Positions 2 through 19,144 of a stretch of 64,000 nucleotides of DNA are shown here, piece by piece. The notes beneath the pieces were generated by a model that worked only from the letters and a program-made list of their open reading frames with translations, was not told the origin of the DNA and did no database searches. The position numbers and the translations under genes are program-made. This DNA is from Tepidiphilus sp. J10 (GTDB lineage Bacteria > Pseudomonadota > Gammaproteobacteria > Burkholderiales > Thiobacillaceae): positions 1-64,000 of the forward strand of contig CAMDGQ010000007.1 in the NCBI GenBank assembly GCA_945897955.1, in the 5' to 3' direction. Position 1 is the first letter of the stretch, and every line of letters begins with the position of its first letter.

Positions 2-655
2 TCACCAGTTGTAGTCCGGCATGTCCCAGTCGTGGATCACCCGCTTCTGGTTGGATTTGTACCAGTCGAATTTCTCCGCGTACTGGTTGGCGCCTTCCGC
101 CTTGCCGGCGCGGATCAGTTTCTTCAGGTCTTCGAAACCGGCCAGCAGCGCTTCCGGGCGCGGCATGCAGCCGACAATGTAGAGATCGACCGGCATGTAG
201 TCGTCGAGCCGCTTGATGGTGTTGTAGGAATCCCAGTACATGCCGCCGTTGATGGTGCAGGAGCCGAGGCCGACGACATATTTCGGGCTCTGCATCTGCT
301 CGTAGGCGCGGATCGCGCGCTTCAGCGTCTTCACCGAAAGGTAGCCGGAAATCACCAGCAGATTGGCCTGACGCGGCGTCGGCCGCCACTGGATGCCGTA
401 TCGATAAGCATCGAAGCGCGGCGTCATCAGCGGACGCATTTCGATGGCGCCGCAGCCGGTGCCGAAGCCGAGGATCCACAGGGAATGCGAGCGCGCCCAG
501 TTGAAGAAGTCCTCGACAATTCCGATGTAGGCGCCGTGCTGCACGGTCGGCAACGCTTCGCAGAAATAGTCGCGCAGCGGTTCGACTTCGAATTCGACGC
601 CGTCCGGGCCTTTGACGAAACGTTTTTGCAGTTCTGGTTTCAGTTCTTGTGTCAT
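2..655 (-). CDS. NuoB/MbsJ-like iron-sulfur subunit of an Mrp-linked membrane complex
   Basis: A 217-residue homologue of the NuoB/PSST subunit, which carries the terminal [4Fe-4S] cluster (N2 in complex I) next to the membrane arm. C133 lies in a GSCxxxGGMY motif and C163 in a GCMPRPEAL motif, both as in NuoB. The tandem Cys pair of NuoB is reduced to one: C68 is followed by G69 (codons TGC GGC), so one of the four usual ligands is absent. The gene is the last complete one of a minus-strand operon and starts one base after the stop of the NuoH-like gene. Its TGA lies at the window edge; NuoC/NuoD-like genes should follow outside. Position in the cluster matches MbsJ/MbxJ rather than a stand-alone complex I gene. 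Family certain, exact complex inferred. Confidence 0.88.
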   Translation of the reverse strand: MTQELKPELQKRFVKGPDGVEFEVEPLRDYFCEALPTVQHGAYIGIVEDFFNWARSHSLWILGFGTGCGAIEMRPLMTPRFDAYRYGIQWRPTPRQANLLVISGYLSVKTLKRAIRAYEQMQSPKYVVGLGSCTINGGMYWDSYNTIKRLDDYMPVDLYIVGCMPRPEALLAGFEDLKKLIRAGKAEGANQYAEKFDWYKSNQKRVIHDWDMPDYNW

Positions 656-656
656 C

Positions 657-1562
657 TCACACCCACAAAATCGCCAGCACGCCGAGCGGCACGGCCCAGA
701 TCAGGAACCAGCGGATCGACTGCTCGACCCGGAAGCGCGGGAAGCAGACGCCGACGAAAGCCGAGAACAGATAGAGCAGGAACACCTTGACGGCGAATTC
801 CGGCCAGCTGGTCGCGCCGCCAAAGAACAGGTTCATGTAGATCACCATCTTGGCGACCGGGAAGATCGCCCGGTTGGTCTGCATCAGCGCCAGATAGGCG
901 GAGTGGTATTCGGTCGGCGGGCCGATCGGGATTTCCTGCGGCGCGATCACCACGTCGAATGGCGGCCGCATCATCGAACCGAGGAAGGCCAGCATCGCCG
1001 CCGCCACCGCCAGCGGGTTGGTGAACAGCGTCCAGTTCAGCATGCCGCCCTGCTGCGCGGCGACGATGTCGGTGACCGACAGCGTCTGGTATTGCAACGC
1101 CACCGCGAACACCGCCAGCGCGAACGGCAGTTCGGCGACGCTGACCTGCGACAGGCCGCGGGTGATGCCGATCGCCGCATGTGGATGGCCGCTCTCGCCA
1201 GCGCCCAGGGCCATGCCGAGGGTGCCGAAGAAGACGAAATACAGCGCCAGAATCAGATCGCCGGCGAACGACAGGTTGGAGAACATGTACGAGCCGTAGA
1301 TGGTCGGCACGAACAGCAGCAGGCCGATGCCGCCGGTCAGCCGGAACACCGGGCCGAGGTAGAACATCACGCCATGGGTGATCGAGGTGCGCTGGCCGTA
1401 GTTCTTGATCAGGTCGATATAGTTCTGCCAGATCGGAATGCCGTGACGGCGGCCGGCGCGGGCGCCGATCTTCTGGATCAATGCGCCGAGCAGCAGGCCG
1501 TAGTTGAACACGATGAACACGGTCAGCAGCGCGTAGGGAATCTTCATCCAGTCGAAGCTCAT
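657..1562 (-). CDS. NuoH/MbsM-like membrane subunit (respiratory complex I subunit 1 family)
   Basis: A 301-residue polytopic membrane protein of the NuoH/HyfD/MbhM family, which forms the joint between the redox arm and the ion-pumping arm. Recognisable are the hydrophobic N-terminal helix with GALIQKIGARAGRR, a loop beginning near GIPIWQNYIDLIKNYGQR, and a string of hydrophobic helices to the C-terminus. The start overlaps the stop of the double antiporter gene by four bases, so the two are probably translationally coupled. NuoH immediately followed by NuoB is the M-J order of archaeal MBX/MBS operons; in MBH operons the NuoH homologue comes later. The product is inner-membrane and should contact the NuoB-like protein encoded next. 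Confidence 0.87.
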   Translation of the reverse strand: MSFDWMKIPYALLTVFIVFNYGLLLGALIQKIGARAGRRHGIPIWQNYIDLIKNYGQRTSITHGVMFYLGPVFRLTGGIGLLLFVPTIYGSYMFSNLSFAGDLILALYFVFFGTLGMALGAGESGHPHAAIGITRGLSQVSVAELPFALAVFAVALQYQTLSVTDIVAAQQGGMLNWTLFTNPLAVAAAMLAFLGSMMRPPFDVVIAPQEIPIGPPTEYHSAYLALMQTNRAIFPVAKMVIYMNLFFGGATSWPEFAVKVFLLYLFSAFVGVCFPRFRVEQSIRWFLIWAVPLGVLAILWV

Positions 1563-4500
1563 GGCCGGACTCCCATGCCAAACAGATAGACGATCATCAC
1601 GAAGGCGAGCAGATGGAAAGCGTAGGTCTGGCCGTTGCCGGTATAGAAGCGCCGCGCCAGATCGCCTGCGGTATGCAGCAGATCAGTGACCGTTGACCAG
1701 AACATCGTCGCCAGCGGCAACGTCAGGAAGCCCAGCGCCTTGCGGTAAGGAGCGAAGAAATTCCACGCGAAGTGGGTGGTTTCCGGCCGGAAGGGACGTT
1801 CGGCGGAGAACACGATGTTGAATTGCTTGACCTTCTGCGCGCGGCGATTGACGAACAGCAGCCAGGCGAACAAGGTCATGAAGATCACGCCGACGATGAT
1901 CATGATCGCCACCGGATTCCAGTAGCCGAACTGGCTGGTGATGGTGCTGCCTTCCCAGACCAGGCCGCCGTTGGGGAAGAACGCGTTCAGGTAGCTGTCG
2001 ACATGGCGCAGCACCAGGCCGGGCACCACCGCCACCACCAGCAGGATGGCGACATAGATCATCTGCGGCAGCACGATCCAGAACGGCGCTTCTTTCACGC
2101 GCCTGAATTCATCCTTCAACTGGCCGAGGAAGATGGTGTAGATCAGGCGGAACAGGTACAGGAAGGCGATCGGGCCGGCGAGGAAGATGATGACCATCGG
2201 CAGCCGAGCCTCGGCGGTGAGGATGGCGTTGTAGAAGATCCAGCGGCCGCCGAAGCCGGACAGCGGCGGCACGCCGGACACCGCGATGATGCCGATCAAT
2301 GTGGCGATGAACGACAGCGGCATCAGCGTGATCAGGCCGCCCATGCGGTACATCTCGCGCGTGCCGGTGCGCTTGGCGACGCCGCCGATCGACAGGAACA
2401 GCATCGACTTGTAGACGTAATGGTTGATGACGAACATCAGCGCCATCAGCCAGCCCAGGTGATTCATCAGCGCCAGGCCGAACATCGCGTAGCCCATCTG
2501 GCCGATCGAGGAATAAGCCAGCAGGCGCTTGGCATCTTCCTGGAAGATCGCCAGCAAATTGCCGATCAGCGCGGTGATGGCGCCGATCCAGAGCATGACG
2601 TTGATCAGTTCGACGCCGTAGAAGTCCTGCCGGCCCATGGTCAGCAGCAGCACGATCAGGCCGTACAGACCGGCCTTCAGCAGGATGCCGGAGACCATCG
2701 GCGAGACATCGGTTTCCGCCTCGGCATGCGCGCCGGGCAGCCAGATGTGCAGGCCGATGGCGGCGGTCTTGGTCATGAAACCGATCGCCAGCAGCAGGAA
2801 CACCCAGGGCGCCAGCGGCTGCACCAGATCGGCCAGCGCCGACAGATCGAAATGCGGTGCGCCCTGGGTCGCCAGCGCGAAGCCGGCGAGGATCAGGAAA
2901 GCGCCGCCGAGCGAGAACAGGATGTAGGACAGCGCATGCGGTTCGGAATGCTTGCCGCGCAGGATCAGGAAGTAGGAGCCGACCGTCAGCAGTTCCCAGG
3001 CGACGAAGAAATCGAACGTGTCGGTGGCGCGGATCAGCATGGCCAGGCCGGCAAACATCAGCATCGCCGACGGATAGAAGCCGCTGCGCTGGCCGTGCGC
3101 ATGGTAGCTGGCCAGCAGCGTCAGCGAGCCGCCGATCAGGAAGATCACCGCGAAGATCATGCGCAGCGGGTCGTATTCGGTGTAGGTCAGGTAGAACCAG
3201 GCCAGCAGGCCGGCAATCGCCAGTGTGTTCTTCAACCAGGCCGGCAGCGGGTCGAGGGCCAGGAACGTCAATGCGAACAGCAGCGGCAGCGCCAGCAGCA
3301 GGTTGCCGCGTTCGAATTGCAGGACCGACAGTTCGCCCCAGACCAGGCTCAGGGCCCAGGCGGCAGCCAGCGCCGCGATGACAGCAACGACTTTGTGTGC
3401 AGCGTTGTCGACAACCTCGGCCGGCGCTTCGCGCTTCATGATGTAGCCGAACCAGCGGAACAGATAGCCGGCTTCGATCAGCGCACCCAACAGGATCAGC
3501 CCGAGCAAGGCGATGCGGCCTTCGCCGGCGAGCAGGTGGATCAGTTCCCACTTGGCATAGAAGCCGGGGAACGGCGGCAAGCCGGTGAGCATGCAGATGA
3601 AGCTGACAAAGGCGAAGATCAACACCGGATGGCCGCGCAGCGCCGCCCAGGCTTCGAGACCGCGTTCGGCGATCAGGCCGGACAGCCAGAACAGGCCGGC
3701 CTTGGCCACCGCGTGCGACAGCAGCAGACCGCCGGCGATGTACAGCGTGTGGTCGCCGAGGATGTCGCGTTGGCCGAGAACGGCCAGGATCAAGCCGGTT
3801 TGCGCGATCGACGAATAGCCGAGCAGACGCCGGTCATTCGTTTGCGGCAGCGCCAGCAGGTTGGCTGCGATGAAGGTGATGATGCCGATGCCTGTCGCCA
3901 TCGGTAGCCAGGCGTCGCCGCCGATCAGCAGCAGCTTGTCGACCGCGAACAGCGCGGCGGCGCCGGTGGCGGCCGAGAACAGCGCGGAGAACGCCGGATG
4001 CGCCGATTCGTAGATGTCCAGCGCCCAGCCGTTGGCCGGGAAGGGTTTCAGTTCGGCGACGATGGCGATGAAGATCAGAAAAAATGCCAGTGAGAACGCC
4101 TGCGCGGCACTACCGCTGAGCAGCGGAGCCGCGGCGGCCATGCCGTCGATGTTGAGCGTGCCGGTGGTGTGGTAGGCGAAGATGATGCCGATCAGCAGGA
4201 ACGCCGAGATGAACTGCGACACGACCAGATATTTGAAGCCGGCCGCCAGCGCCTGGCCGTCATTTTTCGAGTGTTCGGACAGCAGCACCAGACCGGCAGT
4301 GGCAATCACGGTCATCTCGAAAAACACAAACAGATTGAACAGGTCGCGGGTCAGCACGATGCCGGACAGCGCCATCACCGCCACCAGCCACACCGCCATC
4401 GCCCGGCGTCCCAACGCCAGCAGCGTGTCCTTCAGCGCCAGCGCGGAAAACAGGCCAGTCAGGTTGATCAGCAGGGTCAGCGCCGCTTCGGCCAGGCCGA

Positions 4501-4726
4501 TGCGCAGATTGATGGCGAACGGCGGCTGTGTGCCGGCGGTGAAGATTTCCACGGCGGCGGTGTCGGTACTGGCGAAGGTCCACAGCCAGCCGGCGGAAAT
4601 CCAGCTCATGAAGGCTAGCGTCACCAGCGTGATGCCGAAAGCGAGGCCGCGTTGTTGCTCTTTCAGCAGCCCCATCAGGAAGGCGGCTGCCAGCGCCGCG
4701 GTGATGATGTGCAGGGCGCTTACCAT
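1559..4726 (-). CDS. Fused double proton/cation antiporter subunit (two MrpD/NuoM-type modules)
   Basis: One 1055-residue protein holding two complete proton-conducting transporter modules (PF00361 type), roughly residues 1-500 and 500-960, followed by a C-terminal extension of about 90 residues with a long helix and a last membrane segment. Each module keeps the helix-5 glutamate (E137 in FFEMTVIA; AWELLTVGSY in the second) and channel lysines (FKYLVVSQ and VDKLLLI; GFMTKTAAIG and ILLKAGLYG). MrpD, MbhH and MbxH are normally about 490-510 residues, so this equals two such subunits in one chain. In archaeal MBX/MBS operons MbxH and MbxH' are separate neighbours. It overlaps the upstream MrpC-like gene by seven bases and the downstream NuoH-like gene by four. 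Confidence 0.88.
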   Translation of the reverse strand: MVSALHIITAALAAAFLMGLLKEQQRGLAFGITLVTLAFMSWISAGWLWTFASTDTAAVEIFTAGTQPPFAINLRIGLAEAALTLLINLTGLFSALALKDTLLALGRRAMAVWLVAVMALSGIVLTRDLFNLFVFFEMTVIATAGLVLLSEHSKNDGQALAAGFKYLVVSQFISAFLLIGIIFAYHTTGTLNIDGMAAAAPLLSGSAAQAFSLAFFLIFIAIVAELKPFPANGWALDIYESAHPAFSALFSAATGAAALFAVDKLLLIGGDAWLPMATGIGIITFIAANLLALPQTNDRRLLGYSSIAQTGLILAVLGQRDILGDHTLYIAGGLLLSHAVAKAGLFWLSGLIAERGLEAWAALRGHPVLIFAFVSFICMLTGLPPFPGFYAKWELIHLLAGEGRIALLGLILLGALIEAGYLFRWFGYIMKREAPAEVVDNAAHKVVAVIAALAAAWALSLVWGELSVLQFERGNLLLALPLLFALTFLALDPLPAWLKNTLAIAGLLAWFYLTYTEYDPLRMIFAVIFLIGGSLTLLASYHAHGQRSGFYPSAMLMFAGLAMLIRATDTFDFFVAWELLTVGSYFLILRGKHSEPHALSYILFSLGGAFLILAGFALATQGAPHFDLSALADLVQPLAPWVFLLLAIGFMTKTAAIGLHIWLPGAHAEAETDVSPMVSGILLKAGLYGLIVLLLTMGRQDFYGVELINVMLWIGAITALIGNLLAIFQEDAKRLLAYSSIGQMGYAMFGLALMNHLGWLMALMFVINHYVYKSMLFLSIGGVAKRTGTREMYRMGGLITLMPLSFIATLIGIIAVSGVPPLSGFGGRWIFYNAILTAEARLPMVIIFLAGPIAFLYLFRLIYTIFLGQLKDEFRRVKEAPFWIVLPQMIYVAILLVVAVVPGLVLRHVDSYLNAFFPNGGLVWEGSTITSQFGYWNPVAIMIIVGVIFMTLFAWLLFVNRRAQKVKQFNIVFSAERPFRPETTHFAWNFFAPYRKALGFLTLPLATMFWSTVTDLLHTAGDLARRFYTGNGQTYAFHLLAFVMIVYLFGMGVRP

Positions 4727-5085
4727 TTCAGTTCCGTCATTTTGGCGATGTCCAGCGTGTGCTTGCGCGCATGCAGTTTGAGCGCGTAGGCCAGCATCAA
4801 CGCGGTCACGCCAAGGCCGATGACGATGGCGGTGAGCACCAGCGCTTGCGGCACCGGGTCGATGACGCGGGCCACCGCGTCGGCCGCCGGCACGGCGACA
4901 TCAAGAATCGGCGCGGTGCGGCCGCGCATGTGGCCGACCGCCACCAGCACGATGTTCACCCCGGTGTCGGCGATCGTGAATGCGACGATCATGCGCAGCA
5001 GGTTGCGCTGCGTCAGCGCGCCGTAGAAGCCGATCAGAATCAGGATGAAACCGGCGGCCATGGCCATCTGGGCGAGGCTGATCAT
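4720..5085 (-). CDS. mnhC: MrpC/MnhC-like (NuoK family) antiporter subunit
   Basis: A 121-residue membrane protein with three hydrophobic helices, the size and pattern of MrpC/MbhG (NuoK family). The motif around TIADTGVNIVLVAVGHMRGRTAPILD in helix 2 and the following loop is typical of MrpC, including the small polar residues of the conserved helix. The C-terminus is a short basic tail. The start codon overlaps the stop of the MnhB-like gene (ATGA), and the end overlaps the double antiporter gene by seven bases. It should sit between the MrpB-like and MrpD-like subunits in the membrane arm. The family call is firm; the transported ion cannot be read from the sequence. Confidence 0.85.
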   Translation of the reverse strand: MISLAQMAMAAGFILILIGFYGALTQRNLLRMIVAFTIADTGVNIVLVAVGHMRGRTAPILDVAVPAADAVARVIDPVPQALVLTAIVIGLGVTALMLAYALKLHARKHTLDIAKMTELKW

Positions 5086-5783
5086 GTTTCCTCCGTTTCT
5101 GAAAGGCTGGCCAGCATCGAGGAGAACTCGGCGCCGACCTTGAGGCCGATCAGCGAATAAATGACCGGAATGACCCCGGCCGAGAACAGTTCGCCGAGCG
5201 TGCCTATCGGCAGCAATCGGTTGTCGAGGAAGCCGCCGGCGAGCAGCACGCCGAGGACGCCGATGCCGACGAAGAGCAGGCCGGACAGCGATTCCAGCAC
5301 CGAGATCAGTTGGTGGCTGAACTGCTTCAGCGGGTCGGCCAGCAACAACAGCAACATGCCGGAAGCGACGATGGCGCCGCCCTGGAAGCCGCCGCCGGGC
5401 GTCAGATGGCCGTTGACGAAGACATACACACCCAACAGCAGGATCAGTGGCGTCAGCGCGCGGCTGCCGGTGCTGAGCAGTTCGCTCACCGGCACCCGAG
5501 GTTGACGCGGCGCGTCGCTTGGCAGCCGGTCTTGCGCCAGCACTAGACCGACGATGGCTGCGGAGATGAACAGCACGGTGACTTCGCCGAGGGTGTCGAG
5601 GCCGCGATAGGTGACGACGATGGCGGTGACGATGTTCGCCGCCCCGACGTCCCCGGCGGTGCGTTCGGCGTAATAGCGGGCGGTGTGGTTGAGTTCGCTG
5701 TCCGGGACATAACCAAGCAGCAGACTGGCGAACAGCGTGCCGACGGCAAACAGCAACAACAGGGCAATGGCGCGCTTAATCAT
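5082..5783 (-). CDS. mnhB: MnhB/MrpB-domain protein (MbhE+MbhF equivalent)
   Basis: About 233 residues from the chosen start (MIKRAIALLL). The start is preferred over an upstream extension that would overlap the previous gene by 90 bases, because ATG at 5783 gives the usual eight-base overlap with the DUF4040 gene. The N-terminal 100 residues (one helix, then RYYAERTAGDVGAANIVTA and YRGLDTLGEVTV) resemble the C-terminal end of MrpA/MbhE. The rest, beginning near LLSTGSRALTPLI and including HLTPGGGFQGG, is a classic MnhB domain. So MbhE-like and MbhF-like parts are joined in one chain. Inner-membrane, part of the antiporter module. High confidence in the domain call. Confidence 0.85.
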   Translation of the reverse strand: MIKRAIALLLLFAVGTLFASLLLGYVPDSELNHTARYYAERTAGDVGAANIVTAIVVTYRGLDTLGEVTVLFISAAIVGLVLAQDRLPSDAPRQPRVPVSELLSTGSRALTPLILLLGVYVFVNGHLTPGGGFQGGAIVASGMLLLLLADPLKQFSHQLISVLESLSGLLFVGIGVLGVLLAGGFLDNRLLPIGTLGELFSAGVIPVIYSLIGLKVGAEFSSMLASLSETEET

Positions 5784-6093
5784 GTGAGTCTGCCTTGTTG
5801 TCTGCCTCGTTGTCAGCGTCGATATTGGCGCCACCATGTCCGGCACCTCGAATGCGGGCCAGCACAAAGAAGAACAGGAAGGTGGTCAGGCCGCTGCCGA
5901 TCGCCGCCTCGGTCATAGCCACATCGGGCGCGGCGAGTACCAGAAACAGAATCGAAGCGACCAGACTGACCAGACCGGCGGCGAGGATCGCAACCGGCAG
6001 CCGTTTGGCGCGGATCGCCATCAGCGCCGCGCCGATCATCGTGATGCACAGCACCAGCGTGATGCCGAAGACCAAAGGACTCATGGGGCTCAT
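5776..6093 (-). CDS. DUF4040 / MbhD-like antiporter subunit
   Basis: A 105-residue protein with three hydrophobic helices and an acidic C-terminal tail (DADNEADNKADSHD). The stretch LAAPDVAMTEAAIGSGL is the hallmark of the DUF4040/MbhD domain, equal to a piece of the C-terminal part of MrpA. Stand-alone MbhD genes are typical of Mbh/Mbx-linked Mrp clusters, whereas free-living Mrp antiporters carry this segment inside MrpA. No MrpA N-terminal (NuoL-like) module is present in the operon, which supports a respiratory complex rather than a plain Na+/H+ antiporter. Start and stop overlap both neighbours by a few bases. Confidence 0.82.
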   Translation of the reverse strand: MSPMSPLVFGITLVLCITMIGAALMAIRAKRLPVAILAAGLVSLVASILFLVLAAPDVAMTEAAIGSGLTTFLFFFVLARIRGAGHGGANIDADNEADNKADSHD

Positions 6094-6431
6094 GCTTGAT
6101 CTCCCCGCCGGTCATCAGCCAACCGATCAACGCCGGTCAGCGGCGACTTTTCCGCGCCGCCGCGATGCGCGGCGCGCGCCAGCACATGCGAGGAAAGCGG
6201 GTTGGTGAACAGGATGAACAAGCCGATCAGCGCCAACTTCAGCGCCCAGGCCGGTTGCAGGCAGGCGATGCCGGCCAGCGACAGCAGCGTGCCCAGTGTC
6301 GTCGCCTTGGTGCCGGCCTGGATGCGGTTGAACACGTCCGGCATGCGCACCAGCCCGAGGCCGCCCAGCAGCAGGAAGGCTGCACCGGCGACCAGCAGGA
6401 CGCCGCCGATGAATGCAAGCAGCGATTCCAT
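6090..6431 (-). CDS. mnhG: MnhG/MrpG-like antiporter subunit
   Basis: A 113-residue protein with three membrane helices and the MnhG signature around LLGGLGLVRMPDVFNRIQAGTKATTLG, followed by a hydrophobic pair of helices and a cytoplasmic tail with an Arg/Ala-rich stretch. The ATG at 6431 overlaps the last base of the MnhF TGA stop; a GTG three bases upstream is also possible. MrpG-type subunits lie with MrpE and MrpF at the distal end of the antiporter module and are needed for its assembly in studied systems. Second call from the operon start after MrpE and MrpF, the same order as in mbh/mbx operons. Confidence 0.85.
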   Translation of the reverse strand: MESLLAFIGGVLLVAGAAFLLLGGLGLVRMPDVFNRIQAGTKATTLGTLLSLAGIACLQPAWALKLALIGLFILFTNPLSSHVLARAAHRGGAEKSPLTGVDRLADDRRGDQA

Positions 6432-6691
6432 CACAGACCCCGCTCAAGATAACGGGCGACAACAATCACCCCGAGGAAGGACAGCAGCGCGTAGACCAGC
6501 GCCACATCGAGATAGATGCCGCGTCCTTCCAGCAGCGCCAGCAGCGCGATGGCGGTGATGCCGATGATGGTCAGCACGTCGAAGGCGATGACCCGGTCGG
6601 CGGTCGACGGGCCCTTGACGAAGCGATACAGCGCAAGCAGCAACGCCAGGCCGGTCAGTGCCGCCGCCAGATAGATCAGAAACTCAACCAT
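6431..6691 (-). CDS. mnhF: MnhF/MrpF-like antiporter subunit
   Basis: An 86-residue three-helix membrane protein. The central motif LYRFVKGPSTADRVIAFDVLTIIGI is the conserved MrpF signature, including the basic and acidic residues flanking helix 2. It overlaps the MnhE-like gene upstream by eight bases and shares the TGATG junction with MnhG. Such small subunits are only found in Mrp-type modules, so they identify the whole operon as Mrp-linked. Nothing unusual in length or sequence was seen. Confidence 0.86.
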   Translation of the reverse strand: MVEFLIYLAAALTGLALLLALYRFVKGPSTADRVIAFDVLTIIGITAIALLALLEGRGIYLDVALVYALLSFLGVIVVARYLERGL

Positions 6692-7184
6692 ACATGACCT
6701 CGAGATAGTCCTCGAAACCCGAGACGATGGCGGCGGTGGCCGCCTCGATATCGGCCGAATCCACCGTCACCCAATGGATGTACAGCCATTCGCCGTCGAT
6801 ATCGACGGTCAGCGTGCCGGGAGTCAGCGTGATCGAATTGGCCAGCAGCAGCCGCCCCATGCGGCTTTTCAGCCGGGTCCGCACTTTGACGATGCCGGGG
6901 TTCAGCGGCAGGGCGGGAGAAAGCACAATGCCGGCAAGGTTGAGGTTCGACTTGACCAGTTCCCTGGCGAAGAACAAGACATAGCCGACTGCCGCAATCA
7001 GCGCGCGCGGCGTCATCCGCAATTCCGACACGACCGCGAGGCTGTTGCGGAACAGCAGGGTGATCAGAAACGCCGCGATCAGGCCGACCAGCAGGACATC
7101 CCCGGCCAGCGAACCGTTCAACAGAACCCAGAATCCGAACAGGGTGGCAAACAGCAGCGTCATATCGCGTGTTCCGGTCATCAA
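6684..7184 (-). CDS. mnhE: MnhE/MrpE-like antiporter subunit
   Basis: A 166-residue protein: two N-terminal membrane helices followed by a soluble domain with TPGTLTVDIDGEWLYIHWV, the conserved MnhE core. It is the first gene of the Mrp-linked operon. A strong ribosome binding site (GGAAGGAAGGGG) stands upstream of tandem ATG codons; the first, at 7184, is used here. The transcript presumably starts in the 7185-7500 stretch. The order E, F, G, DUF4040, B, C, D-D is that of archaeal mbh/mbx operons rather than the bacterial mrpABCDEFG order. Confidence 0.86.
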   Translation of the reverse strand: MMTGTRDMTLLFATLFGFWVLLNGSLAGDVLLVGLIAAFLITLLFRNSLAVVSELRMTPRALIAAVGYVLFFARELVKSNLNLAGIVLSPALPLNPGIVKVRTRLKSRMGRLLLANSITLTPGTLTVDIDGEWLYIHWVTVDSADIEAATAAIVSGFEDYLEVMYG

Positions 7185-7721: not shown

Positions 7722-7757
7722 CCAAACAAAACGCCCACCCCCTTGAGGAGGTGGGCG
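7722..7757 (-). terminator. Intrinsic terminator of the sox/fcc operon
   Basis: On the minus strand an 8-bp perfect stem, CGCCCACC (from 7757) pairing with GGTGGGCG (7739-7732), closes a 10-base loop and is followed by a T-rich run (TTTTGTTT). It lies 49 bases after the stop of the pentahaem cytochrome gene and ends the operon. Confidence 0.85.
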
Positions 7758-7806: not shown

Positions 7807-9327
7807 TCAGTTGCTGGAGACCTTAACCGGCGCTTCGATGGCCTTCAGATCGGCCGCGCCGTAAACCCGATTGATGGACTTCATTTCCACCACGGGCACT
7901 TTCACCGCCCCCTTGCCCAGCAGCTTGTCCGCCACCGCCTGGTCGTAGCTCATGTAGTTGAGCTTGGCATCAACCTTGAAAGCCTTGGTATCCGACGGCA
8001 GCTTGAAAGCATATTTGCCGTAGCGATACCCCTTCGGCGGGATGGTGTTCATCTCTTCGAATCGGGCGATTTCCCAGGGGTTGACGGTGGGTTTGCCATC
8101 CTTGTCCACCGATTTGTTGCCGAACACCACGGCGTCTTCATCGAAGCGGTTGTCCGCGCCCAGTTCGCCCGAACGCAACAGCACGCGGCCCTGATCGTCG
8201 GTCACGGTGACATCGAGCCAGATCAGGCGGATGAAGGTCAGGCTGGTGGGGAGATGATGGCCGGCGCGGGCATTGATGACCTTGACGCGCAATTCATGCG
8301 CGCCGCCCTTGCCGCTCTTGATATCCATATCCAGCTCGGCCACGTTCTGCAAACGCTTGATCGCCTCGATCTTGTGTTCTTCCGCATTGGCCACGCCCAG
8401 GGCGGGAGCGATGACGGCATTGCCGCCGACAAAACCGTGGTCATGCACCAGGTCGCGTGTTTCCCTCGCCTTGGTCGAGGATTTACCGCCCAGGCCATGC
8501 TGATCCAGATCCCTGGCGCGCTTCATCTCGTCGGCGACACGCACGGCGGTTTCCACCGGCACCATATGGCAATCCTGACAGGGGATGTCGGCCTGCGCAT
8601 AGGGTGAGGTCTTCCACTCGTCATAGGTATGTTCGATCGGGAACTGGTTGAACGGATGGAAGATGTTGTGGCAGTTGCCGCAGAACTCGGCCTTGGTGTG
8701 CAGATCCGAATACTGGGTTTCGTGATAGCCCGATTTCGCGTTCTTCAGCGGACCGTACTTGGTTTCACCCGGATCGAGCACCAGCGAGGCATTGCCCGGG
8801 TCGCCCGACGCGGACTGGGCATGATTGGAGCGGACGGTGCTGTGGCAGACGTCGCAGGTGACGCCTTCCTCGGCGACCTTGGGCGCGGTAAAGCCGCCAT
8901 GCTTGCCAAGGGAAGGATCGAACTTGATTGTTCCGGTCGTCACGCCGATCGGGCTGTGGCAACCGCCGCAATGGTTCATCAATTGCCCGCCCATGGCCTT
9001 TTCCGCCAGCGCCCACTCAGCCTGGAACACCGGATCCTTGAACGCGATGGAATGCATGGAACCGAGCCAGCCCTTGGTCTGGCGCGGGTGGCAGGTGGCG
9101 CAATTGCGCGCCTCCTCGAAATCCTCGACCTTGAGCTTGCGATTGTTGGCTACCGCCAGCATGGAAGGCGGGAAGGGTTGCGCGATATTGCGGGGCGCGG
9201 GGTTGTCGGCTTCCTTGCTTTCGACTTTAGCCGGTTCATCGGCGCCGGCGGAGTACATCAGGCTGACGGAAATGCCGGTGACCAGGCCGACTATCAGCAT
9301 CATCCGGTTACGCAGGGTGCTTTTCAT
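7807..9327 (-). CDS. Periplasmic pentahaem cytochrome c (cytochrome c554-like)
   Basis: A 506-residue secreted protein with an N-terminal signal segment and five CXXCH haem sites at C76, C120, C158, C216 and C250. The first, CATCHPRQTKGWLGSMHS, and its surroundings resemble the cytochrome c554 family used by multihaem electron carriers and some oxidoreductases. The last 240 residues have no haem motif and look like a beta-rich domain (ARAGHHLPTSLTFIRLIWLDV), as in other c554-like proteins found with redox operons. It is the last gene of the sox/fcc operon, 89 bases after fccB, so it probably passes electrons from, or acts together with, sulfide or sulfur oxidation. Substrate unknown; an enzyme role (polysulfide, tetrathionate) is as possible as a carrier role. 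Confidence 0.75.
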   Translation of the reverse strand: MKSTLRNRMMLIVGLVTGISVSLMYSAGADEPAKVESKEADNPAPRNIAQPFPPSMLAVANNRKLKVEDFEEARNCATCHPRQTKGWLGSMHSIAFKDPVFQAEWALAEKAMGGQLMNHCGGCHSPIGVTTGTIKFDPSLGKHGGFTAPKVAEEGVTCDVCHSTVRSNHAQSASGDPGNASLVLDPGETKYGPLKNAKSGYHETQYSDLHTKAEFCGNCHNIFHPFNQFPIEHTYDEWKTSPYAQADIPCQDCHMVPVETAVRVADEMKRARDLDQHGLGGKSSTKARETRDLVHDHGFVGGNAVIAPALGVANAEEHKIEAIKRLQNVAELDMDIKSGKGGAHELRVKVINARAGHHLPTSLTFIRLIWLDVTVTDDQGRVLLRSGELGADNRFDEDAVVFGNKSVDKDGKPTVNPWEIARFEEMNTIPPKGYRYGKYAFKLPSDTKAFKVDAKLNYMSYDQAVADKLLGKGAVKVPVVEMKSINRVYGAADLKAIEAPVKVSSN

Positions 9328-9416
9328 GATTGTTCAACTCCTCGATAGGGTTGCTGCTTCGGGTTGCTTCATTTCGTCGCGCCGGGCGAGCCGGCGCGAC
9401 GATCGTTCGAACTCGT

Positions 9417-10712
9417 TCAGGCGAAGGCGTCGGCCATGACGTTGTTGAACCAGCCAACGCAATACTCGGCTTCCAGCTTGCGTTGCAGGGGTGGCGCGTC
9501 GAGCGGAGAAATTCCGCCGGCAGTCTTCACATAGACGAACTGGTTGTTCTCGACGCGATAGATATGCACCACCGAGATACCCCAATCCGGCGCCAGCGTG
9601 CTGTAGCAGGTATTGACGTAGTAAGGCTGCGGCACCGGCAAGCCGTTGAGTTTGGCGACAATGGCGCCGGCCGCCACCTTGGCCTGGGTCATCGCCATAT
9701 GCGCGGACTTGGGCATGTCGTACACCGGCAACTCGCCGGCAATGCAGGCATCGCCGATCGGGTAGATGTCCTTGTGCCGCGTCGATTCCATCGTCATCGG
9801 CGTCACCTCGCACCAGCCCTGGGCATTGGCCAGCCCGCTGCGCACGGCGATCTGGCCGGCATGGTGCGGCGGGATCAGGTTGACCACATCACCCTGATGC
9901 TCGTTCAGGCCGGTGAAGCAGGTTCTGCTGGCGACATCGACCCGCTCCACCTTGCCGTCGCCGGCGCCCGGCACCCATTCGATCATGCCCGGATAGAGCG
10001 CCTTCCAGCCCTGCTCGAACAAGCCCTTCTTGGAGAAGGAATCGTTGGCGTCGAGGATCAGTACCTTGCTCCTGGCCTTGCCGTTATGCAGGCAGTAGTG
10101 CGCGACCTGGGCGGCGCGCTCGTAGGGGCCGGGCGGGCAACGGAAGGGTTTCGGCGGCACGCTGATGATGAACACGCCGCCATCGGCCATGGCTTGCAGT
10201 TGCCATTTCAGAATCCGGGTCTGCTCGCCGGCCTTGTAGGCATGCGGCATATCGGTCACGGCATCCTCTGAATAGCCGGCCACCGCTGTGTAATCGAACG
10301 AGATGCCGGGCGCCATGATCAGTGCGTCATAGGACAGCTTCCGGCCACCCTGGGTAGCGACCGTTTTCTTCAACGGGTCCACCGCCGTGACGAAGTCGTG
10401 AACGACATTGACCCCGCGCCTGGCGATCTTGTCGTACCCGGTTTGCAGGCTCTCGATCTCGCGGTGGCCGGAGATGACTTCGTTCGACAACGGGCAGGCG
10501 GTGTAGGTCTGATTGGCTTCGATCAGCGTGACATCGATGGCCGAATCCATCAGCTTGATGTACTTGGCGGCGGTGGCGCCGCCGAAGCCGCCGCCGATCA
10601 CGACAACCCTGGCTTTGACGCCGGCATGCGCACGGGCGGGTATGGTCAGCACCGAGGCGGAGCTGGCGGCGGCAATGGCCTTGAGAAAGGCGCGACGATT
10701 GACTGGGTTCAT
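9417..10712 (-). CDS. fccB: Flavocytochrome c sulfide dehydrogenase, FAD subunit
   Basis: Flavoprotein of sulfide dehydrogenase (FccB/SoxF): oxidises sulfide in the periplasm and passes electrons to the dihaem partner FccA. About 431 residues from ATG 10712. A twin-arginine signal (NRRAFLKAIAAASSASVL) is followed by the FAD-binding fingerprint VVIGGGFGGATAAKYIK. The redox-active cysteine regions are visible as FRCPPGPYERA and YYVNTCYST, as in FCSD. A GTG at 10727 that overlaps the fccA stop (GTGA) is an alternative start adding five residues. It lies directly downstream of fccA in an operon with soxXYZ. Confidence 0.9.
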   Translation of the reverse strand: MNPVNRRAFLKAIAAASSASVLTIPARAHAGVKARVVVIGGGFGGATAAKYIKLMDSAIDVTLIEANQTYTACPLSNEVISGHREIESLQTGYDKIARRGVNVVHDFVTAVDPLKKTVATQGGRKLSYDALIMAPGISFDYTAVAGYSEDAVTDMPHAYKAGEQTRILKWQLQAMADGGVFIISVPPKPFRCPPGPYERAAQVAHYCLHNGKARSKVLILDANDSFSKKGLFEQGWKALYPGMIEWVPGAGDGKVERVDVASRTCFTGLNEHQGDVVNLIPPHHAGQIAVRSGLANAQGWCEVTPMTMESTRHKDIYPIGDACIAGELPVYDMPKSAHMAMTQAKVAAGAIVAKLNGLPVPQPYYVNTCYSTLAPDWGISVVHIYRVENNQFVYVKTAGGISPLDAPPLQRKLEAEYCVGWFNNVMADAFA

Positions 10713-10723
10713 GGTATTTGCAC

Positions 10724-11299
10724 TCACTTCTGGCTGGCGAAGAACTCGGGCGCGGACTTGAGCCCTTCTTCGTCGAGTTTTCTGGCGTTGGTGCGCATCT
10801 TCTTGTGCGTCATCTTTACGGCATCATCGCGATACTTCATCAGCTCCAGCTCCATGTATTGCGCCCACTGGCCGTTGAGTTTCGGTGTCACATCGTCGTC
10901 CGGCTCGCTGCCGGTATCGCCGTGGCAGGTCACGCACCGTTCGACCGCGTCCTTGCCATGCGCGACGCGCCTTGCATCGGTGTTCTGGGCCACCGGCACC
11001 CAGGGCAGTCTGGCGTAATAACCGGCAATGGCGGCCAGTTCCTCGTCGCTGTACCCCTTGACCAGTCGACCCATGCTGGCCGAGAAGCGTTCGCCGCTCT
11101 TCCACTGCATCAAGATCTGCTTCAGGTAGGCCTCGGACAGGCCGCCGATCGAGGGCATCGACTGGCCGACGCTGACGCCGTTGATGCCGTGGCAGTTGTT
11201 GCAGGTACGCGCCAGCCCCTCGATGTTGATGCCGGCGGCAGCGGCCGGCCCGCCGGCTATCAGCGCCAGGGTGCAAAGCAGACTGGATAGTTTCCGCAT
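10724..11299 (-). CDS. fccA: Dihaem cytochrome subunit of flavocytochrome c sulfide dehydrogenase
   Basis: A 191-residue secreted cytochrome with a signal peptide (MRKLSSLLCTLALIAGGPAAAA) and two class I haem sites, CNNCH and CVTCH, each followed by a cytochrome c4-like domain. Start chosen at ATG 11299 because the signal peptide begins there and a GGAG motif precedes it; an in-frame upstream extension is not convincing. Its overlap with fccB marks it as FccA/SoxE rather than a free cytochrome c4. It accepts electrons from FccB and hands them to the respiratory chain. Confidence 0.87.
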   Translation of the reverse strand: MRKLSSLLCTLALIAGGPAAAAGINIEGLARTCNNCHGINGVSVGQSMPSIGGLSEAYLKQILMQWKSGERFSASMGRLVKGYSDEELAAIAGYYARLPWVPVAQNTDARRVAHGKDAVERCVTCHGDTGSEPDDDVTPKLNGQWAQYMELELMKYRDDAVKMTHKKMRTNARKLDEEGLKSAPEFFASQK

Positions 11300-11369
11300 C
11301 GTTTCTCCTTTTTTATGGGTTCGCGACCAGATGAGCGGATGTTCCGCCATCTGGCCGATGCATCGACGA

Positions 11370-12059
11370 CTACAAATCGCCTTCGGCGGCGGCTTTCATG
11401 ATGACATCCATCTTGTCGCGGATGTCCTTGGCGTATTCCATCAGCTTGTCCGGCGCGCCCATCTTGCCGGAGAGGGAATCCAGCCAGGAGGTGTTCCAGT
11501 CCAGCGTCAGCACCCAGATGTTCTTGTCGGCGTCTTCCATGATGGCGATGCGGCAAGGCAGGTAAACAATCGATTCCGGCGCGTACTTCAGGATTTCGCG
11601 GCCGGCGGCGATATCGCAATAGTGATAGACCTCCATACGCGGCGCATCCATGTCGCCCAGCACTGCCTGAATGTCTTTCCACATCGGACTCTCGCCGACT
11701 TTCTTGAAATTGAGCTTGTTGGCGCTCAGTTCCATGGACTGTTTGACATCCTCGAAGCTGAGACCCGGCTTGGCCTGGTATTTGATGGCCATCAGATTCA
11801 TCACATCCTTGATGTCCATGCTCTTGACCATGCCCATCATCGGCATGACCTGCTTCATCAGCGCGGCCTTCTCCTCGGGCGTCACGATGCGCGACATTTC
11901 ATAAGGCCGCGTGCCGCGACCGCCGGCGGTAACCGGCAACACGACGGGGCCGGCGGAAAGCGGCACAAATTTCAGATAGGGATTGCCGCCCGCCTGCTGG
12001 GCTGCGGCACCTCCGGAAACCAGCAGCATTGCCGCCAGGATTGCGAGTTGTTTTTTCAT
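11370..12059 (-). CDS. Secreted DUF302-domain protein of the sox cluster
   Basis: A 229-residue protein with a signal peptide (MKKQLAILAAMLLVSGGAAAQ). The C-terminal half matches the DUF302 pattern: a helix-rich section, MEVYHYCDIAAGREILKYAP, VYLPCRIAIMED and WVLTLDW. The two cysteines in YHYCD and LPCRI may form a disulfide or bind a ligand. DUF302 proteins are frequent beside sulfur-oxidation genes, but their biochemical function is not known. Start set at ATG 12059, which gives a normal signal peptide; an upstream in-frame extension would overlap soxZ. Placed between soxZ and fccA in the same operon. Confidence 0.75.
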   Translation of the reverse strand: MKKQLAILAAMLLVSGGAAAQQAGGNPYLKFVPLSAGPVVLPVTAGGRGTRPYEMSRIVTPEEKAALMKQVMPMMGMVKSMDIKDVMNLMAIKYQAKPGLSFEDVKQSMELSANKLNFKKVGESPMWKDIQAVLGDMDAPRMEVYHYCDIAAGREILKYAPESIVYLPCRIAIMEDADKNIWVLTLDWNTSWLDSLSGKMGAPDKLMEYAKDIRDKMDVIMKAAAEGDL

Positions 12060-12113
12060 GATGCTTCCTGTCGCGAAAATGGAGCCGGCAGTCCGGCTCC
12101 GCATGTTGACCAA

Positions 12114-12428
12114 TCAGCCGATGGCGGCTTCGGCGGTGTTCTTGTCGCCGGTGTTGTCCACCCAGTTGACGACAACCTTGTCGCCCTTCTTGGCGCCCTT
12201 GACCTTGAATGCCAGGTAGGGGTTCTTGGAAATGCCGCCGCCCCACTGCGCGTCCAGCACTTTCGCACCGTTCACCGTCGCCGTGACGTTGGTGATGTGG
12301 TGCGCCGGCACCACGGCGCCGGTCTTCGCGTCCTTGCGCAGGCCGGTCTCCATCGGGTGGTTCATCAGACACTTCACTTCGGCGCTGTCGCCTGCCATCG
12401 AGGCGCGGATCTTCATCGGTTCTGCCAT
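12114..12428 (-). CDS. soxZ: Sulfur carrier complex subunit SoxZ
   Basis: A 104-residue beta-sandwich protein with the SoxZ pattern: MKIRAS near the start, KCLMNHPMETGLRKD, VPAHHITNVTATVNG, NPYLAFKVKGAKKGD and a final VVNWVDNTGD. SoxZ pairs with SoxY; the SoxYZ dimer carries sulfur intermediates between Sox enzymes in the periplasm. SoxZ has no signal peptide of its own and is co-exported with SoxY. An AGGAG motif sits seven bases before ATG 12428. It follows soxY by about 50 bases. Family call is firm. Confidence 0.93.
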   Translation of the reverse strand: MAEPMKIRASMAGDSAEVKCLMNHPMETGLRKDAKTGAVVPAHHITNVTATVNGAKVLDAQWGGGISKNPYLAFKVKGAKKGDKVVVNWVDNTGDKNTAEAAIG

Positions 12429-12478
12429 TTTCTTGCTCCTAGGGTTTAACGGGTTCGGTCAAGTCGGTGAACAAGCAA

Positions 12479-12946
12479 TCAGCCGCCGCAGCCGCCGATG
12501 GTGACTTTCACTTCCTTCGCGGCGGTGTACATCTTGCCGCCCGCCTTCACCACGGCGCGAACATTGGCGGTGGTTCCCATCTTGATACGGGTGGATACGA
12601 AGCCCTGCGCGCCGTTCGACAGGTCGAACTGGGCGATCATCGGCAGCGTGTTCTTCTCGCCAATGATGATGATCGACTCGGTGCCGGCAATGTTGGAGGT
12701 GATTTCAACCGGCACAACCGCGCCGTTCTCCGCAATGTCCGGCGCTTTCACGCTGATATCGCCCGCTGCCGCGCCGGCGCCGCCGACCGCGCTCATCACG
12801 CCGCCCAGATCCTTGCTGTCGAATACGGCCTTGTTCCACTCGGCCGCGAATACCGCGCCCGGGGTCAGCAGTCCGGCGGCCATGGCCACGCTCACCGCGC
12901 CGGCTGCGCCAGCGCCCTTCAGTACGTTTCTGCGCAAAATGTTCAT
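12479..12946 (-). CDS. soxY: Sulfur carrier protein SoxY
   Basis: A 155-residue protein with a twin-arginine signal (RRNVLKGAGAAGAVSVAMAAG) and the diagnostic C-terminal swinging arm GGCGG, whose cysteine carries thiosulfate-derived sulfur during oxidation. ATG 12946 has AGAGGAG at good spacing; a GTG two codons earlier is possible. It works with SoxZ (next gene), SoxXA, SoxB and SoxCD in classical systems, of which only SoxX is encoded here. Sequence features are complete, so the carrier should be functional. Confidence 0.94.
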   Translation of the reverse strand: MNILRRNVLKGAGAAGAVSVAMAAGLLTPGAVFAAEWNKAVFDSKDLGGVMSAVGGAGAAAGDISVKAPDIAENGAVVPVEITSNIAGTESIIIIGEKNTLPMIAQFDLSNGAQGFVSTRIKMGTTANVRAVVKAGGKMYTAAKEVKVTIGGCGG

Positions 12947-12982
12947 ATGCACTCCTCTGTCAGTTCGGTTGGTTACAGTTAC

Positions 12983-15730: not shown

Positions 15731-15821
15731 TTAACTGTTTCACATCAGATTTGAGGCGCTTGTGGCACCACAGACTGTGTTTGGTTCGAATGAAATTTTT
15801 TCAACTACAGGAGTTACAAAC

Positions 15822-16649
15822 ATGAAACGCAAAGTTCTGAACAGCTTGGTCGGTGTAGCGATGCTGGGCGCTGCCGCCAGCGCCAACGCCTTCATCTTCA
15901 ATGCCGCAAACTATGATTTGAACGGCGCCCCGATGGCGATCAACAATCTCGGCGCCGGCACCCCCGGTTTCAACATCGTGATCCAACTAGGCGCTCTTGA
16001 CAGCGCCTCCCTCGTGTCCAGCAGCATTACCTCCGATCTCGGCGGCATGACTGTCGGTCAGACCGTTTCCGCCACCACCCTGCACACCAAGGGTCAGGTC
16101 GGTCTGGACAACCCCGCGACTCCCCAAATGGATTTCAAGCGCACCTACGACGAAACCACTTTCTTTGGTTCGGTTTCCACCACGTTGATGTCTCTGGTTG
16201 GTGCAGCTGCGCTCCCCGGCACGCTTGACACGAGTACCGCCAGCTTCAGCGGCGCCATGAATGTCACCTACGACGGCATCTTCAATGATTTCCCGCTGCT
16301 CCAGATCAGCGGTGCCGGCGCCGGCAACATGGCCATCGCTTTCGTCTTCAATGACGCGTTGGACACTCTCGCCATGACCGTTGTTGAATCCGGTCTCTCT
16401 GGCTGGACCGGCCTGGAAGCCGCGCTGAAGAATCTGGACGGTTTCCTTAGCGGCGCAATTGACGACTCCGTGAGCGCCTTCGTCTATGCCGGCAATACCG
16501 TGTCCGACACCGCCCCCCTGACCAAAGGCGGCTTTGTTCAAACCAGCACCGGCAACCTGGTCGTCTCCGCCGTTCCCGAACCCGCTTCCCTGGCCCTGCT
16601 GGGACTCGGTCTCGCCGGTCTCGGCATGATGCGCCGTCGCAAAGCCTGA
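15822..16649 (+). CDS. PEP-CTERM sorting-domain protein
   Basis: A 275-residue secreted protein. The signal peptide (MKRKVLNSLVGVAMLGAAASANA) and the C-terminal signal AVPEPASLALLGLGLAGLG followed by MMRRRKA are those of exosortase substrates: VPEP motif, hydrophobic helix, basic end. The middle is Gly/Ala/Ser/Thr-rich, without cysteine or catalytic motifs, so a structural or matrix role fits. Start at ATG 15822, with CAGGAG eight bases upstream. PEP-CTERM proteins are exported, cut by an exosortase (not encoded in this window) and associated with exopolysaccharide; the EPS cluster follows directly. No specific function is known. Confidence 0.88.
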   Translation: MKRKVLNSLVGVAMLGAAASANAFIFNAANYDLNGAPMAINNLGAGTPGFNIVIQLGALDSASLVSSSITSDLGGMTVGQTVSATTLHTKGQVGLDNPATPQMDFKRTYDETTFFGSVSTTLMSLVGAAALPGTLDTSTASFSGAMNVTYDGIFNDFPLLQISGAGAGNMAIAFVFNDALDTLAMTVVESGLSGWTGLEAALKNLDGFLSGAIDDSVSAFVYAGNTVSDTAPLTKGGFVQTSTGNLVVSAVPEPASLALLGLGLAGLGMMRRRKA

Positions 16650-16676
16650 TTAACCATCAGCTTATTCGGCATCTTG

Positions 16677-16706
16677 AAAACGGCGGTCTCGGCCGCCGTT
16701 TTTTTT
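16677..16706 (+). terminator. Intrinsic terminator after the PEP-CTERM gene
   Basis: Perfect stem ACGGCGG (16680-16686) and CCGCCGT (16693-16699) with a TCTCGG loop and eight consecutive T residues. It separates the PEP-CTERM transcript from the EPS operon. Confidence 0.92.
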
Positions 16707-16980
16707 CGCGCTCGATTTATCATTGCCCGGCATGTCGGAATTTTTTACACTTTTTCGGCGAATAGTGCTCAAGCAATCTGCATTGCTTGCCGATGAAGGA
16801 GGGCCGCGTTGCGCTGAACAGCTTTGACTTCTGTTGTTTTGCTTGCCGCACCCCAGATTTCTTGGCGTGACGGGGCTCGGCGCACCGGGTGGCAGCGAGT
16901 CAGCGGCCGGCAATTCTGATGTACCTATTCGTGCATGACTTAAGTCTTCATAGCGGCTTTCAGCAGGAGCGCAGCAAAGC
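16707..16980. other. Gene-free leader of the exopolysaccharide operon
   Basis: No gene is seen in this stretch, which with the terminator completes a 331-base gap. It should contain the promoter of the EPS operon. A perfect 10-bp palindrome GACTTAAGTC lies near 16937. A TTGGCGTGACGGGGC stretch near 16861 resembles a sigma-54 site, but the GG-to-GC spacing is nine, one short. Confidence 0.4.
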
Positions 16981-18477: not shown

Positions 18478-18497
18478 ACACACATTCCAAAAACATC

Positions 18498-18938: not shown

Positions 18939-19144
18939 GCCAGCCTCGAGAAAAACCGGGTTGCGAAACTCGCGCACAAGCGAAGGATTCCGCCCGTACC
19001 GTCAAATTGCTGCGACGTCTGCCGCGCAACTACAATCCGCCCGGCCTCCGCTACACCCGATTCAATCGACAGCGGACCGAATCCATGTCAGTTACCGGCC
19101 AGTGCTTCGCAATACGAAACGCCACCCCTGATTTCGCGCTCTAG
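18935..19144 (+). CDS. Possible small basic protein, unknown
   Basis: A 69-residue open frame whose ATG overlaps the wzb stop (ATGA) and ends 14 bases before the wza-like start. It is Arg-rich (KLLRRLPRNYNPPGLRYTRFNRQR) with no membrane segment or known motif. The coupling suggests translation; the lack of any family resemblance argues for chance. No function is proposed. Confidence 0.25.
   Translation: MSQPREKPGCETRAQAKDSARTVKLLRRLPRNYNPPGLRYTRFNRQRTESMSVTGQCFAIRNATPDFAL

Follow-up and report, generated by a model that had tools for sequence, protein, structure and literature searches.

Gene content of the locus

The window analysed here is a stretch of 64,000 nucleotides from Tepidiphilus sp. 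J10 (contig CAMDGQ010000007.1, positions 1 to 64,000), and its left end carries an operon for a membrane complex with redox subunits that resembles the membrane-bound sulfane-sulfur reductase of archaea (MBS, formerly MBX). Positions 2-7184 encode, on the minus strand, nine proteins in an order which we take to equal that of the archaeal MBX/MBS operon (table 1). Every gene lies where an earlier reading made from the sequence alone had placed it, with order and strand as claimed, except that the two MrpD modules turned out to form one open reading frame (ORF) of 1055 aa.

The window starts at the end of its contig (C7; G000:C7:1), at which point the NuoB ORF is complete, bases 2-4 being its stop codon. 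The first 149 bases of contig C49 are identical to the reverse-strand end of C7, i.e. the operon runs on into C49, which encodes, in this order, NuoC, NuoD (392 aa), a class D beta-lactamase (283 aa), a fusion of NuoI with a GltD-like protein (599 aa) and rubrerythrin (173 aa). This join is supported because relatives show the identical succession of genes, minus the beta-lactamase, on single contigs. The redox genes that the sequence-only reading had expected beyond the window, those for NuoC, NuoD and NuoI, are thus located on C49, with NuoI fused to GltD. Window and C49 together hold the complete peripheral arm (J, K, L, N) and membrane arm (A-E, G, H, H', M) of MBS. In a sample of 369 genomes of the class, which counts the window's own, a protein search (E 1e-100 or better) found the fusion in 18; the full subunit set is present in 14 of the 17 other loci, and the remaining three stand at contig ends, one starting at MnhB and two showing the last genes only. 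Among the operon genes of window and C49 there is none for NuoE, F or G and no separate MrpA gene, and this lack of MrpA, together with the presence of NuoB, C, D, H and I, speaks against a plain Mrp antiporter, which would have MrpA and no redox subunits. A rubrerythrin match is visible in 65 of the 97 loci compared, many of them truncated by contig ends.

Table 1. Coordinates in the window of the operon genes, followed by those of the neighbouring genes and signals.
Feature	Position	Strand	Evidence or remark
MrpE / MbsA-like subunit	6684..7184	-	Pfam MNHE 1.2e-39; putative TTG start at 7184
MrpF / MbsB-like subunit	6431..6691	-	Pfam MrpF_PhaF 2e-18
MrpG / MbsC-like subunit	6090..6434	-	Pfam PhaG_MnhG 2.3e-24
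DUF4040 / MbhD / MbsD-like subunit	5776..6093	-	Pfam MbhD 7.9e-18
MbhE-MnhB fused subunit, MbsE-like	5082..5783	-	Pfam MnhB 6.3e-24 and MbhE 9.9e-10; best PDB match 6u8y_E
MrpC / MbsG-like subunit	4720..5085	-	Pfam Oxidored_q2 1.3e-21
Fused MrpD1-MrpD2, 1055 aa, MbsH-like then MbsH'-like	1559..4726	-	Proton_antipo_M 5e-82, two stretches in a single protein
NuoH / MbsM-like membrane anchor	657..1562	-	Pfam NADHdh 3.8e-42
NuoB / MbsJ-like subunit	2..655	-	Pfam Oxidored_q6 2.4e-21; best PDB match 6u8y_J 8e-62
Terminator-like hairpin	7732..7757	-	11-pair stem and T-rich tail; consensus match only
Neighbouring block, not part of the complex	7807..12952	-	soxY, soxZ, DUF302, cytochrome c, fccB, multihaem cytochrome
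Multihaem cytochrome	7807-9327	-	five CxxCH
fccB	9417-10727	-	
Cytochrome c gene	10724-11350	-	fccA-like by position
DUF302 gene	11370-12113	-	between soxZ and the fccA-like gene
soxZ	12117-12428	-	
soxY	12479-12952	-	

Affiliation with archaeal MBS

Comparison with solved structures covered NuoD, NuoB, the fused MrpD, the MnhB-MbhE protein and the NuoI-GltD fusion, and the nearest solved relatives of the MBS-like parts are the chains of Pyrococcus furiosus MBS (6U8Y). NuoD matches MBS with 306 bits, complex I with 206 and membrane-bound hydrogenase (MBH) with 134, the corresponding values for NuoB being 212, 133 and 90, with a runner-up to its best match at 1.3e-37. Residues 4-271 of the fused MrpD match 6u8y_H and residues 478-1052 match 6u8y_X (H'), the MbhE-MnhB fusion aligns with its residues 2-229 to residues 1-229 of 6u8y_E (3e-47), and the 599-aa fusion has GltD/Nfn-type chains as best solved matches and 6u8y_N as its best NuoI-type match (9.8e-22).

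For the alignments, NuoB, NuoD and GltD rows covering less than 70% of the query were dropped, with 96 NuoB and 90 NuoD rows being kept. Maximum-likelihood trees were computed from 25 of these family rows and a few references (one MBS, one MBH, FHL, Hyf, and two or three complex I sequences). In the NuoD tree the family groups with MBS at 100/98, with a warning by the program that long branches meet, and approximately unbiased (AU) tests reject a placement with complex I (p 0.0103) as well as one with hydrogenases (p 0.0113). The NuoB tree also places the family with MBS, at 89/80 and under the program's star threshold, and rejects hydrogenases (p 0.032); its bootstrap is unsettled, and taken alone it gives no settled order of MBS, complex I and the types A and B described below. 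A separate complex I NuoB and NuoD are encoded elsewhere in the same genome.

Structure matches, NuoD tree and AU tests support the kinship with MBX/MBS that the sequence-only reading had proposed, and we consider its assignment to archaeal MBS/MBX, in preference to complex I, hydrogenases and plain Mrp antiporters, to be right. Soft spots of this placement are the long branches of the NuoD tree and the fact that, whereas NuoD groups with MBS, NuoB alone fails to reject complex I. Given its GltD/NfnB-like module where a ferredoxin would be expected, the complex is filed here as a putative MBS-type variant and not as an archaeal-type MBS. The betaproteobacterial origin, also claimed earlier, agrees with the nearest named relatives, i.e. 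a 'Betaproteobacteria bacterium' (L042), followed by Gallionellaceae and Thiobacillaceae.

Residues at the catalytic site

Two types of loci can be distinguished. In type A, which comprises the window, L025, L038, L039 and L042-L121, MrpD1 and MrpD2 lie in one frame (75 of the 97 loci; the other type A loci show this gene truncated or not at all), whereas in type B (L026-L036 and L040) they are separate, and the counterparts of MbsJ C25 and MbsL C385 are retained. In MBS these two cysteines are dispensable, the ligands of the proximal cluster being MbsJ C28, C93 and C123 only (PMC7684303). In the window NuoB, C68, C133 and C163 align to the three ligands, C68 has G69 as its neighbour, and G65 replaces C25. 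The ligand cysteines are invariant in the alignment (96/96 rows), while the C25 position is G or A in all 84 type A rows (which include one duplicate, L025 and L102 being the same contig) and C in all 12 type B rows.

The window NuoD shares the stretch RICVPEPD with MbsL. Its first motif region includes cysteines 87 and 90, but the C-terminal one (HTYPPEIER) has none, which speaks against a group 4 [NiFe] hydrogenase with its two CxxC motifs and agrees with the NuoD without Ni-Fe site that the sequence-only reading had put forward as its own test. At the MbsL C85 position, 65 of the 78 type A rows have C and 13 have A, at the C385 position C is found in two of the 78 (L108 and L109), and both positions are C in 12/12 type B rows. 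The quinone residues H38 and Y87 of Nqo4 correspond to T42 and V91 in the window and in 78/78 type A rows, and to E42 (glutamate) and V91 in 12/12 type B rows, so that the complex I signature of tandem NuoB cysteines plus NuoD H38/Y87 is absent from the window. Overall, the cysteines that are needed are kept and the dispensable ones drift, which fits a site-differentiated cluster and speaks against both a hydrogenase and a quinone reductase. The 13 NuoD rows with alanine at the C85 position belong to L038, L039, L106 and ten loci among L105-L121.

The electron-input module

The 599-aa fusion combines a NuoI part with an NfnB/GltD-like part. Among 78 full-length rows (fusions in frames of up to 560 aa were left out), 17 cysteines are invariant in every row: a NuoI set (46, 49, 52, 56, 87, 88, 90, 93, 97) and an NfnB/GltD set (183, 186, 189, 193, 228, 232, 236, 240), the latter followed by a Pyr_redox domain. 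A structure model has a mean pLDDT of 71, with a good GltD part and a poor NuoI part (1-146); it was used solely for the fold of the GltD part, for which the best matches are Nfn L subunits (5jca_L 1.1e-41). The GltD/NfnB-like module follows NuoI in frame in 85 of the 86 loci showing NuoI, the exception (L070) being a short contig. The ferredoxin donor of MBS has probably been replaced by this built-in module, which is itself probably NAD(H)-dependent and which the sequence-only reading had not anticipated. At the nucleotide site the aligned Nfn-type chains have YRR, the residues that in NfnB bind the phosphate of NADP(H), a criterion applied to DsrL as well (PMC7596348). YRR occurs in four of the 78 fusions (L038, L039, L106, L108), the position reading TAL in the window and 47 others, TSL in nine and other triplets in the remaining rows. 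By the DsrL rule (PMC7596348), the window complex is therefore predicted to use NAD(H).

The window NuoI-GltD matches type B (L026-L036) with 655-808 bits and the type A loci L038 and L039 with 515-548, whereas NuoD shows the opposite trend, with 338-379 bits against the former and 537-545 against the latter, which suggests that the electron-input gene may have been swapped between lineages.

Distribution and genomic context

A NuoB scan of named genomes gave at least 588 pattern matches; confirmation succeeded for 542, and the 80 best of these were retained. Carriers among these best 80 of 542 include Gallionellaceae, Thiobacillaceae, Chromatiaceae, Thiothrix, Sedimenticola, Magnetovibrio, Rhodobacter and Celeribacter, and further Bacteroidales, Prolixibacter and Marinimicrobia; cultured and named are Thiothrix caldifontis, Thiohalocapsa marina, Magnetovibrio blakemorei, Rhodobacter aestuarii and Prolixibacter denitrificans.

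In the class sample, DsrA is present in 117 of the 369 genomes, i.e. in 18/18 carriers (two via partial genes below the cut-off) and 99/351 others (p 4e-10), and at the family level all 16 carrier families fall within the 60 DsrA families of about 179 (p 6e-9), this denominator being the highest number among the matches listed. SoxB was found in 16/18 carriers against 135/351 others, and the RuBisCO family (RuBisCO-like proteins included) in 15/18 against 161/351 (p 0.0027). Within DsrA-positive genomes, however, RuBisCO has no added effect (15/18 vs 85/99, p 0.72), whereas within RuBisCO-positive genomes DsrA is still associated (15/15 vs 85/161, p 1.6e-4), and autotrophy as the driver is thus rejected. 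In the named set, 79 genomes (L092 left out; groups sorted by record title) were searched for DsrA, with a match in 51 and one over the cut-off in 47, all 51 belonging to the 60 Pseudomonadota. The window's own genome has DsrA, DsrB, DsrE, DsrF, DsrH and a DsrC/TusE-like gene together, as well as SoxB. The sulfur link claimed by the sequence-only reading is supported by genome content; the argument it had drawn from the adjacent sox/fcc genes is not supported (see below).

Proposed function and its alternatives

From gene content and order, cysteine pattern, trees and co-occurrence, all computed here, the cofactors, the use of NAD(H), the substrate, ion pumping and the direction of the reaction may be predicted as follows. 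The GltD/NfnB-like part of the fusion would oxidize NADH at its FAD, and its two [4Fe-4S] clusters, followed by two in the NuoI part, would pass the electrons on to the NuoB cluster. With its three cysteine ligands and an open iron, this cluster would top a chamber formed by NuoB, NuoD and NuoH, polysulfide or persulfide would be reductively cleaved at the open iron, and the released energy would drive ion pumping by the fused MbsH-H' protein together with the Mrp-like arm. Under a shortage of oxygen or nitrate, Dsr-type oxidizers would in this way reduce their stored sulfane sulfur. Potentials are about -320 mV for NAD and about -270 mV for sulfur/sulfide, the latter being higher as sulfide drops; the forward reaction would thus pay for about one to two charges, which makes both directions possible, and with so small a driving force the complex may run in reverse. 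We regard it as an evenly balanced proposition that the complex is a bacterial MBS-type, ion-pumping NADH:sulfane-sulfur oxidoreductase which, if oxidants run short, probably acts in the reduction of stored sulfur.

As to direction, a putative Mrp-Mbx of Candidatus Endoriftia, to which that study assigns neither function nor direction, has network neighbours in common with the reductive tricarboxylic acid cycle (rTCA), as do hydrogenases and sulfur-globule proteins, whereas most sulfur-oxidation genes go with the Calvin-Benson-Bassham cycle (CBB) (PMC11636981). With modest confidence, this expression result favours the reduction of stored sulfur under oxidant shortage; the reverse, sulfur-linked role suggested by the sequence-only reading is possible and is not favoured by this one published result.

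Several observations weigh against the proposed function or the placement on which it builds. Taken by itself, the NuoB tree is compatible with complex I (p 0.23), and its unsettled bootstrap and the long-branch warning for NuoD also count here. The NuoB of L039 reads GCC, with tandem cysteines as in complex I, the sole case in 96 rows; this, like the alanine at the C85 counterpart, possibly reflects a changed cluster or substrate. FNR-like boxes upstream of mrpE are in mild excess (34/77 vs 18.7 expected at two mismatches; 7 vs 2.0 at one mismatch; many hits from related Rhodobacterales), and there is none upstream of mrpE in the window. No activity of a bacterial MBS-type member was found in the publications consulted. 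Dsr genomes cluster by lineage, and shared ancestry inflates the Fisher values. In the named set, DsrA was not found in 9/60 searched Pseudomonadota carriers (seven of these nine have SoxB matches, five of them over the cut-off), nor in any of 14 Bacteroidota and Marinimicrobia or of five other bacteria, and none of these 19 carriers outside Pseudomonadota has SoxB over the cut-off (two weak matches below it resemble that of the Escherichia coli control). Lacking both, these carriers indicate that the complex does not require a sulfur-oxidation pathway. Within Pseudomonadota the Dsr association is strong, but carriers from other groups in the searched set do not show it, so that the probable tie of the complex is to the chemistry of sulfane sulfur in general rather than to Dsr.

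The same complex might operate mainly backwards, an ion gradient driving electrons from sulfide or persulfide to NAD+ as reverse electron flow for CO2 fixation. The frequent RuBisCO-family and SoxB genes of the class-sample carriers agree with this, as does the preference for NAD(H) over NADP(H), which fits DsrL-1, the oxidizer type (PMC7596348). Among DsrA-positive genomes, however, RuBisCO adds nothing, the Endoriftia complex follows rTCA and not CBB (PMC11636981), and the Bacteroidota carriers have neither DsrA nor SoxB over the cut-off, which together make predominantly backward running rather unlikely. Less probable again is an MBS-type core acting on another substrate, either a protein or thiol disulfide or persulfide (DsrC trisulfide, CoA or glutathione persulfide, or another carrier) or an unknown acceptor. 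Sequence is unable to fix the substrate, and the MBS mechanism could work on inorganic or organic disulfides (PMC7684303), but an MBS-like hydrophobic chamber would be expected to restrict protein substrates.

A bifurcating flavin as in Nfn, with the second electron going to rubrerythrin or a soluble partner, would be in line with the Nfn L subunits as best fold matches and with the frequent rubrerythrin gene. Yet there is no NfnA/NfnS-like second NAD subunit among the operon genes, the structure model has low confidence in its NuoI half, and GltD proteins, which share this fold, are not known to bifurcate; we hold this reading to be very improbable. Hardly credible at all is an unusual complex I, an energy-converting hydrogenase or a plain Mrp antiporter: the NuoB tree leaves room for complex I, but structure matches, the NuoD tree with its AU tests, the missing Ni and quinone residues, the full MBS gene set and the separate complex I NuoB and NuoD of the genome all stand against it. 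Returning to the NADH:sulfane-sulfur oxidoreductase, we tentatively suggest, with some doubt, that this ion-pumping and reversible enzyme with a bare three-cysteine [4Fe-4S] cluster could be a second coupling site of Dsr-type oxidizers, serving globule respiration to sulfide in dark or anoxic conditions and perhaps charging NAD+ from sulfane sulfur at a high gradient.

Relation to known systems

With P. furiosus MBS the complex shares the subunit set, the MbsE-type fusion, two MrpD-type pumps, a NuoD without Ni site or quinone residues and the three-cysteine NuoB cluster (PMC7684303). It differs in that H and H' are fused, a rubrerythrin gene is added, NuoI is fused to an FAD/NAD(P)H module instead of relying on free ferredoxin, and, in the window, counterparts of MbsJ C25 and MbsL C385 are missing. 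Complex I has homologous NuoB, C, D, H and I; NuoE, F and G in the operon, tandem NuoB cysteines and H38/Y87 are all lacking here, and the NuoD tree gives a separate position. The fusion shares FAD and NAD(P)H domains, two cluster motifs, a ferredoxin part and the YRR criterion with DsrL (PMC7596348) and NfnB/GltD, but its ferredoxin part is NuoI-type, N-terminal and built into a membrane complex, whereas DsrL is a partner of DsrAB with a C-terminal ferredoxin domain (PMC7596348). NCBIfam PRK13984 ('putative oxidoreductase', a name that gives no function) matches it over its full length with 850.8 bits, under the 946-bit cut-off.

The Endoriftia Mrp-Mbx is likewise an MBX-type complex, in a sulfur-oxidizing symbiont with Sox and reverse Dsr (rDsr) (PMC11636981); excerpts of that paper give no subunit anatomy, donor or distribution, and the likeness is one of description. 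Among the matches listed, it is the only publication linking an MBS-type complex, the putative Mrp-Mbx, to an organism with rDsr, and excerpts of PMC11406059 do not mention Nuo or Mrp. Thus, a putative Mrp-Mbx had been named in Endoriftia before, and added here is an MBS-type variant apparently rebuilt for NADH and distributed more widely than the window shows.

An MBS core, best known from archaea of hot springs that respire sulfur and here rebuilt for pyridine nucleotide, would then occur in many Pseudomonadota and Bacteroidota. We know of no agreed enzyme for the formation of sulfide from stored sulfur in globule-forming bacteria; if the proposal is true, the complex is a candidate for this reaction and a reversible energy-coupling site for sulfur oxidizers. 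The named cultured carriers make the proposed function testable.

Neighbouring genes and further observations

Between the sox/fcc block and mrpE lies a gap of about 0.6 kb, with the terminator-like hairpin after the multihaem cytochrome gene. When seven neighbours (multihaem cytochrome, FccB, FccA-like cytochrome, DUF302, SoxY, a second cytochrome c and an M48 peptidase; SoxZ was not included) were searched for in the 97 loci, matches were limited to FccB in L074 and M48 in L069. With mrpE visible in 76 loci, at least 2.2 kb upstream could be inspected in 66, at least 3.5 kb in 27 and at least 5.8 kb in three, so that the nearest genes are well tested, whereas recurrence of soxYZ, about 5 kb away in the window, is hardly tested. 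For the nearest genes, adjacency as evidence for a sulfur role is therefore rejected, since they do not recur in relatives.

Flanks were also clustered, with 87 loci contributing 543 ORFs that lie beyond the operon and reach 110 aa or more, and among the 25 largest clusters the largest one of Pseudomonadota covers six loci. Bacteroidota flanks (L105, L108, L111, L112, L114-L118) show a dihydroorotate dehydrogenase-like gene downstream (eight loci) and a Crp/Fnr-like regulator upstream (seven loci), each named via a family search of one representative.

The beta-lactamase-like gene on C49 is complete (L004:1873-2724) and lies between nuoD and nuoI-gltD with an ATGA overlap on each side. Its best NCBIfam match is OXA-198-like (310.9 bits), under that family's cut-off and over the general class D one. 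In L042, 94-96% identical around the insertion, nuoD and nuoI-gltD share one ATGA with no gene between, and none of 86 loci showing both flanking genes has a match. The gene is thus a recent passenger outside the complex.

Elsewhere in the genome, the complex I NuoB lies at C3:1545-1874, and three more Oxidored_q6 matches occur in frames of 338-385 aa (G000:C29:3030-3467, C29:11134-11631 and C3:36436-36873), perhaps hydrogenase small subunits. The window also contains a glycogen phosphorylase-like gene (30783-33335) and a phosphoketolase-like gene (39581-41794), and breakdown of storage carbon via these would fit dark sulfur reduction. A PEP-CTERM protein and Wza/Wzc/Wzz-type polysaccharide export genes are located at 15762-27214.

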